This document shows, piece after piece, positions 8,702 through 9,776 of a stretch of 14,473 nucleotides of DNA. Made by a program: the position numbers and the translations under genes. Positions within the stretch are counted from its first letter, which is position 1. Every line of letters begins with the position of its first letter. Under the pieces are notes generated by a model. It ran no database searches. It had not been told where the DNA came from and saw only the letters and a list, made by a program, of their open reading frames with translations. The stretch comes from Chloroflexota bacterium (GTDB lineage Bacteria > Chloroflexota > Anaerolineae > UBA7937 > JACPPX01), in contig JACPWV010000135.1 of the NCBI GenBank assembly GCA_016196905.1, positions 1 to 14,473 on the forward strand. The letters run 5' to 3'.

Positions 8702-8735
8702 TAAAAAATAAAAAGGGGCAGGCTCTCCCGCCCCT
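8702..8735 (-). terminator. Rho-independent terminator after rpmE
   Basis: Six-base stem AGGGGC/GCCCCT (8714-8719 with 8730-8735), enclosing a 10-base loop. On the minus strand it is followed by TTTTT-A-TTTTTT (8713-8702). The stem overlaps the rpmE stop codon, and the T-run ends just before the tdk Shine-Dalgarno at 8692-8699. Confidence 0.85.
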
Positions 8736-9021
8736 AACTAGTGGGCTTTCCCTTCTTGGCCGGGGCCTTCTGGGGCTTCGCCGACTGGCTGGGGGCCTCC
8801 TGCGGGGCGACCATCCCCTTGCCCCGCTCCACGCGTCGCATGAAACGCTCCACCTGCCCGGCGGTGTCCACGATGCGCTGCTCGCCAGTGAAGAAAGGAT
8901 GGCAGTTGGAGCAGATATCGGTGCGAATCACGGGCACGGTGGCGCCTGTGGTGAAGGTGTTGCCGCAGCCGCAGATCACCTGGGCCTGCGGATACCATTG
9001 CGGATGGATGCCCGCCTTCAT
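8734..9021 (-). CDS. rpmE: 50S ribosomal protein L31, zinc-binding, with basic C-terminal tail
   Basis: A 95-residue L31. The zinc-binding cysteines C17, C19, C37 and C40 identify the Zn-containing type, and [10 protein letters not shown] at the N-terminus is typical. Usual L31 length is about 66-75 residues; here a further tail rich in Lys, Ala, Pro and Gln ([20 protein letters not shown]) is added. The start ATG at 9021 is one base after the rpmA stop, with AAGGTGG 6 bases upstream inside rpmA. The TAG stop lies in the stem of the terminator, which shows that TAG is used as a genuine stop in this genome. Confidence 0.95.
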
Positions 9022-9022
9022 C

Positions 9023-9286
9023 TCAGCCCACCTTCTCCGGGTGTACGCTGACCCGTTTCCGCTCCCGGGTCACATTCTCGAATTTTACCAGCCCCTCGAT
9101 GGTGGCAAATAGGGTGAAATCTCTGCCCAGCTTGACGTTGACGCCGGGGCGGAACTTGGTCCCGTGCTGGCGGACCAGGATCGATCCGGCGCTGACCCAC
9201 TGCCCATCGTAGGCTTTCACGCCTAGGCGCTGGCCCTGGCTATCTCGCCCGTTGCGGCTGGAGCCGCCACCTTTCTTGTGTGCCAT
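9023..9286 (-). CDS. rpmA: 50S ribosomal protein L27
   Basis: An 87-residue L27, near the usual length of about 85. It begins [20 protein letters not shown], the strongly conserved N-terminus that reaches toward the peptidyl-transferase centre, and continues with [13 protein letters not shown] and GRDFTLFA. Start ATG 9286 has GGGAGG 6 bases upstream; the frame is open further, but that part belongs to the tail of rplU. There is no N-terminal leader of the Firmicute type that would need Prp cleavage. It sits between rplU and rpmE in the usual order. Confidence 0.96.
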
Positions 9287-9308: not shown

Positions 9309-9524
9309 TCATTTCTTGGTTGAGCTCTTGCCACCCTTGGAGGTCGGCTTCTCCGCAACCCTCTTGGCGGGGACTTTACCCGCAGGCTTCCGGGGGGCGG
9401 CCTTCCTGACCGAGGCGCGCTTGGGACTGGGCTTGGCCGCCTCCTCCGCCTCGGCTTTGCGTCCCCCCACCAGGATGCGCTCGATCGAGAGTTGGGTGTA
9501 GGCCTGGCGATGGCCGCGCTTGCG
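9309..9524 (-). other. rplU: Continuation of L21 beyond the in-frame TAG
   Basis: Directly after the TAG at 9527-9525 the same frame reads [20 protein letters not shown], matching the conserved C-terminal core of L21 (E. coli has RKQQGHRQ). It then continues as a Lys/Ala/Pro/Arg-rich tail for a total of 71 codons, ending KSSTKK and TGA at 9309. No good internal start with a Shine-Dalgarno is seen, so this part can be made only if the TAG is read as an amino acid, or if the TAG is a sequence error. The rpmA Shine-Dalgarno follows within 15 bases of the TGA. Confidence 0.8.
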
Positions 9525-9776
9525 CTAATAGTGGCCGGAGCGCCGGAATTTGAAGACGGTCACTTTGCGCTCTCGGCCGTGACCCATCACCGTGGCCCGC
9601 ACCCGGGCACCCTTGACCCAGGGAGCCCCCACCTCGACCTGGCCATCGCCTCCCACGAGGAGCACGTGATTGATCTCGTAGGGCTGCCCCTCGTTCAACG
9701 GCAGGCGCTCCACCCGGACGCGCTCGCCCTCCGCCACTCGATATTGTTTTCCGCCAACCTCTACGATCGCGTACAT
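9525..9776 (-). CDS. rplU: 50S ribosomal protein L21, cut by an in-frame TAG
   Basis: The first 83 residues of L21, beginning [20 protein letters not shown], with the family blocks [19 protein letters not shown] and [14 protein letters not shown]21 is a primary 23S rRNA binding protein, normally about 100-105 residues. Codon 84 is TAG, placed where E. coli has Arg in HYRKQQGHRQ, so an intact reading of only this part would lack the final core strand and about 20 conserved residues. The same frame continues as L21 after the TAG (9309-9524). The full product would be 155 residues. Start ATG 9776 has GAAGG 4 bases upstream. It is the first gene of the rplU-rpmA-rpmE operon, behind a strong promoter. 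Confidence 0.9.

Follow-up and report, generated by a model that had tools for sequence, protein, structure and literature searches.

The window, by which we mean the whole stretch of 14,473 nucleotides analysed here (contig C22 of the source draft genome), carries on its minus strand the ribosomal protein genes rplU, rpmA and rpmE, and the assembled rplU sequence is interrupted by an in-frame TAG. The features of this region are as follows:

9528–9776, minus strand: 5′ part of rplU, codons 1–83 of bL21 (PF00829, 94.7 bits, profile positions 1–81 of 99)
9525–9527, minus strand: in-frame TAG, codon 84 of rplU (read in the sequence; reported as "1 TAG" within the whole-genome L21 match)
9312–9524, minus strand: 3′ part of rplU, 71 codons, with 17 residues that complete the L21 domain and then a Lys/Ala-rich tail (read-through PF00829 match; alignment with relative G001)
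9023–9286, minus strand: rpmA (bL27), intact, with a TGA stop (PF01016, 122.7 bits)
8734–9021, minus strand: rpmE (bL31), intact, with an ordinary TAG stop (PF01197, 97.1 bits)

The rplU reading frame begins with ATG at 9776–9774, meets TAG at 9527–9525 and, 71 sense codons later, ends with TGA at 9311–9309. This confirms on the minus-strand sequence what the original prediction, made from the letters alone, had claimed: that codon 84 of rplU is TAG in the assembled sequence and that 71 open codons follow it in frame before a TGA. The prediction had also recognized L21 on both sides of the stop, and profile searches agree with it. The 83 residues up to the TAG score 94.7 bits against PF00829 and reach profile positions 1–81 of 99; when the TAG is read through the score rises to 124.3 bits and residues 1–101 of the protein span positions 1–99, and only with the TAG read through is a full-length bL21 match obtained. 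Eighteen of the 99 profile positions (that of the TAG itself and 17 downstream, the GHRQ motif among them) depend on the TAG, bearing out the claim that L21 would lose its final conserved residues without the second part. The 3′ part by itself has no Pfam match, and the read-through product matches solved bL21 chains across approximately 100 residues.

An open frame of 71 codons is unremarkable alone (23.8% of 20,000 single-base shuffles were also open), and a chance open frame 3′ of the TAG is ruled out by the gain in PF00829 score on read-through: since read-through completes the profile, this frame is L21. The frame is also undegraded, retaining the last profile positions and the GHRQ motif, and its first 20 codons retain the codon-position GC pattern; the TAG is therefore either recent or not real. 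A profile search of the whole draft returned a single match to L21, which scores 123.3 bits and includes "1 TAG". An intact second rplU, which the original prediction had named as refuting, was not found by this search of a draft that is 64.9% complete.

The sample of the order comprised nine genomes including the source draft, no congener being among them, and six gave an L21 match. The five relatives among these six contain no stop in L21, either at the column of codon 84 or elsewhere. As the prediction had proposed checking, we read the residue that these relatives carry at this column: Lys (AAG) in G001, His (CAT) in both G002 and G008, Gln (CAA) in G003 and His (CAC) in G004. The column is variable, and the TAG could plausibly have arisen in one step from a codon for Gln or Lys; the Gln in G003 fits the proposal that the TAG lies one change from a Gln codon. 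Among further class members, 26 L21 sequences were fetched, four were missed by the search patterns, and the remaining 22, read by eye, have Arg in 21 cases and Lys in one. A wider search of 60 genomes found L21 at 55 places in 54 genomes, and the source draft's rplU alone held an in-frame stop. In one class member (G037:C1:954257-954558) L21 is split into two overlapping partial matches, consistent with a frameshift. Across the class sample L21 is nearly universal, with a match in 365 of 396 genomes and in 228 of the 234 with completeness of 90% or more and contamination of 5% or less. Database searching gave 46 hits spanning several phyla, the best named hit by E-value being a Chloroflexi draft at 46% identity.

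Behind the L21 domain the read-through frame encodes a Lys/Ala-rich tail, and alignment reveals a similar tail in G001, a relative from the same family. In these two genes the tail stands in place of an RNA polymerase alpha-subunit C-terminal domain. Such an alpha-CTD-like domain (PF03118, 44.0 to 56.0 bits against a cut-off of 23.8) is fused C-terminal of L21 in four of the five L21-bearing order relatives:

L006:1501-2040: L21 and alpha-CTD-like (PF03118) fusion in G003
L012:1219-1803: L21 and alpha-CTD-like (PF03118) fusion in G002
L017:1501-2085: L21 and alpha-CTD-like (PF03118) fusion in G008
L098:1501-2082: L21 and alpha-CTD-like (PF03118) fusion in G004

The joining of a ribosomal protein to an alpha-CTD-like domain is possibly worth separate study.

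Internal stops were surveyed in 81 of the 227 contigs of the draft, including the window (475,689 bases, 18,966 of them masked), with open frames of the relatives G001 (40 contigs) and G003 (20 contigs) as queries. Seven contigs (L092, L134, L144, L145, L150, L157 and L237) consist wholly of N and add nothing to the survey. The raw set was dominated by wrong-frame matches, and keeping the best-scoring match per place retained 162 of 414. We counted an internal stop as clean when the 25 residues to either side of it each contained 8 or more identities and the nearest 5 were free of gaps. Over 39,283 aligned codons the 162 matches contained 11 stops, and only the rplU TAG is clean by this rule, the other ten lying near match ends or in gaps. 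Under the same rule the control surveys gave three clean stops in G001 (28,566 codons) and one in G003 (27,996 codons), so a single clean stop in the draft is not unusual per se. All four control stops fall outside Pfam domains: three precede the matched domain of their gene, the genes being a TldD-like one and an ABC-transporter ATPase, and the fourth lies between methyltransferase and NUDIX domains. The rplU TAG, by contrast, falls inside a domain. Frame changes in the same surveys numbered two in 162 matches for the draft, none in 118 for G001 and one in 110 for G003.

The source draft amounts to 1,413,671 bases in 227 contigs, is 64.9% complete and 1.57% contaminated, and several of its conserved genes are broken. 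Its only release factor 2 (RF2) match, on C36 (L132), is normal as far as the GGQ region, beyond which it jumps, frame-shifted, to an apparent C-terminal RF2 segment, the result of an internal frame-breaking deletion at approximately 1244–1327 of the minus strand. At the 5′ end of this gene an in-frame TGA is followed by continuation in a different frame, an arrangement that we take to resemble the known prfB autoregulatory frameshift. In the only glycyl-tRNA synthetase (GlyRS) found in the draft (L090, G000:C13:1638-2776) an internal stretch is missing and the frame changes, and an epimerase-like gene (L091, G000:C14, minus strand, approximately 9009–9030) shows a frame change when compared with its relative in G001, itself a PF01370 match. 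Bacteria with TGA stops and Gly codons depend on both RF2 and GlyRS. Since TGA is the commonest stop in our sample of gene ends, a cell without RF2 is not credible, nor is one without GlyRS, unless intact copies are encoded in the third of the genome that the draft lacks; more likely the breaks in these two genes and in the epimerase-like gene are assembly faults or mixtures of variants. Because the only RF2 and GlyRS copies found carry internal frame-breaking deletions, the draft consensus is doubtful in conserved genes. The known breaks are deletions and frame changes, not substitutions, and thus they make the assembly doubtful and leave a base error in rplU unproven. Since no other clean stop was seen, the survey does not show a high base-level error rate.

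What speaks for reassignment of TAG to an amino acid, or for its genome-wide suppression, is the single TAG in frame within a conserved gene, which is also what this case shares with known bacterial stop-codon reassignments. It differs from them in that the sampled codons of the draft hold no further case (a single clean internal stop over 39,283 codons from 81 of 227 contigs, with no TAG seen recurring at conserved positions), that TAG still ends genes and that release factor 1 (RF1) is present. The original prediction had called reassignment unlikely because TAG serves as an ordinary stop elsewhere in the window, and TAG does terminate seven of the 16 genes listed by eye there. Of 94 gene ends sampled in the draft, 23 are TAG, 48 TGA and 23 TAA, in a set that may include some wrong-frame matches. 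RF1 is intact on C60 as a 359-codon open frame with PAT and GGQ, which we take to be its release factor motifs. The search for a tRNA with a CTA anticodon that the prediction had suggested gave none among the 17 tRNAs found, weak evidence in a draft 64.9% complete. The single clean stop, the TAG gene ends and the intact RF1 contradict genome-wide reassignment, which is very unlikely on these observations and to which we assign a negligible probability. Programmed readthrough of the TAG, giving a short L21 and a long one with the basic tail, had been put forward in the prediction as one of several possibilities and fares little better. An open, homologous frame flanks the stop on either side, as in known cases, but the five L21-bearing order relatives all lack the TAG, and no stimulatory structure beyond chance was found around or behind it: the 91 bases at 9530–9440 fold with z = +0.96, and 165 of 200 shuffles were at least as stable. 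Downstream structure is not required in every known case of readthrough. The TAG also lies inside the L21 domain and not at the border between domain and tail, so termination there would give a broken domain, not a complete L21 lacking its tail, which argues against two functional forms. Other conserved genes in the draft are broken as well, none of the 17 tRNAs found has a CTA anticodon, and a literature search on L21 readthrough found no report. Overall, programmed readthrough has a very slim chance of being correct.

A true, recent nonsense mutation fixed in the strain would leave the cell with a truncated L21, or with a full-length protein made by leaky near-cognate decoding of UAG by Gln-tRNA. 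A single base separates TAG from a Gln codon, the residue of G003 at this column is Gln, a tRNA-Gln is present in the draft, and the downstream frame is intact as expected after a recent change. We nonetheless consider this unlikely: truncation would remove 18 of 99 profile positions, GHRQ included, from a protein kept in 228 of 234 good class genomes, RF1 is intact, and the further essential genes broken in the draft fit assembly trouble better. Our search of the literature on the dispensability or absence of L21, at the level of listings and the starts of abstracts, found nothing usable. That this is a bacterium with a fixed nonsense codon in its only L21 gene, in which full-length L21 is made through leaky UAG decoding and its supply is tuned by the efficiency of termination, seems to us highly improbable. 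We favor instead, with a probability of about 0.78, that the rplU TAG stems from a poor draft, whose consensus is wrong at this base or carries a nonsense variant of a minority strain, and that the gene is otherwise normal. An isolated one-base nonsense change would have entered the assembled sequence, either as a consensus error or as a minority-strain allele taken up by the assembler, and the living population would make full-length L21 from a sense codon at position 84, for which Gln is the simplest guess. We infer an erroneous base or a minority allele from a 227-contig, 64.9% complete draft, a lone clean stop shared by none of five relatives, an undegraded frame behind it and the deletions in RF2 and GlyRS. 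Against an error stands the number of frame changes in the draft, which is near that of the controls; RF2 lay outside that survey. The third of the genome absent from the draft could also contain intact second copies of rplU, RF2 or GlyRS.

Screens of the genetic code meet in-frame stops that are spurious or belong to pseudogenes, as one such report describes (PMC8629427). The rplU case resembles the stops described there in being a lone stop in an otherwise intact conserved gene, one base from a sense codon and with no supporting tRNA found; it differs from them in that the gene encodes a ribosomal protein and was found once. For such a gene an artefact of assembly or at the strain level is likelier than a true pseudogene.

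Taken together, the signs point to an ordinary one-letter defect of sequencing, assembly or strain mixture over a new mode of reading a gene. If the TAG were real and fixed, this organism would have a rare ribosomal protein gene dependent on readthrough. Mainly, the case is a warning that lone in-frame stops in drafts of low completeness need to be checked against the reads and against other broken housekeeping genes.
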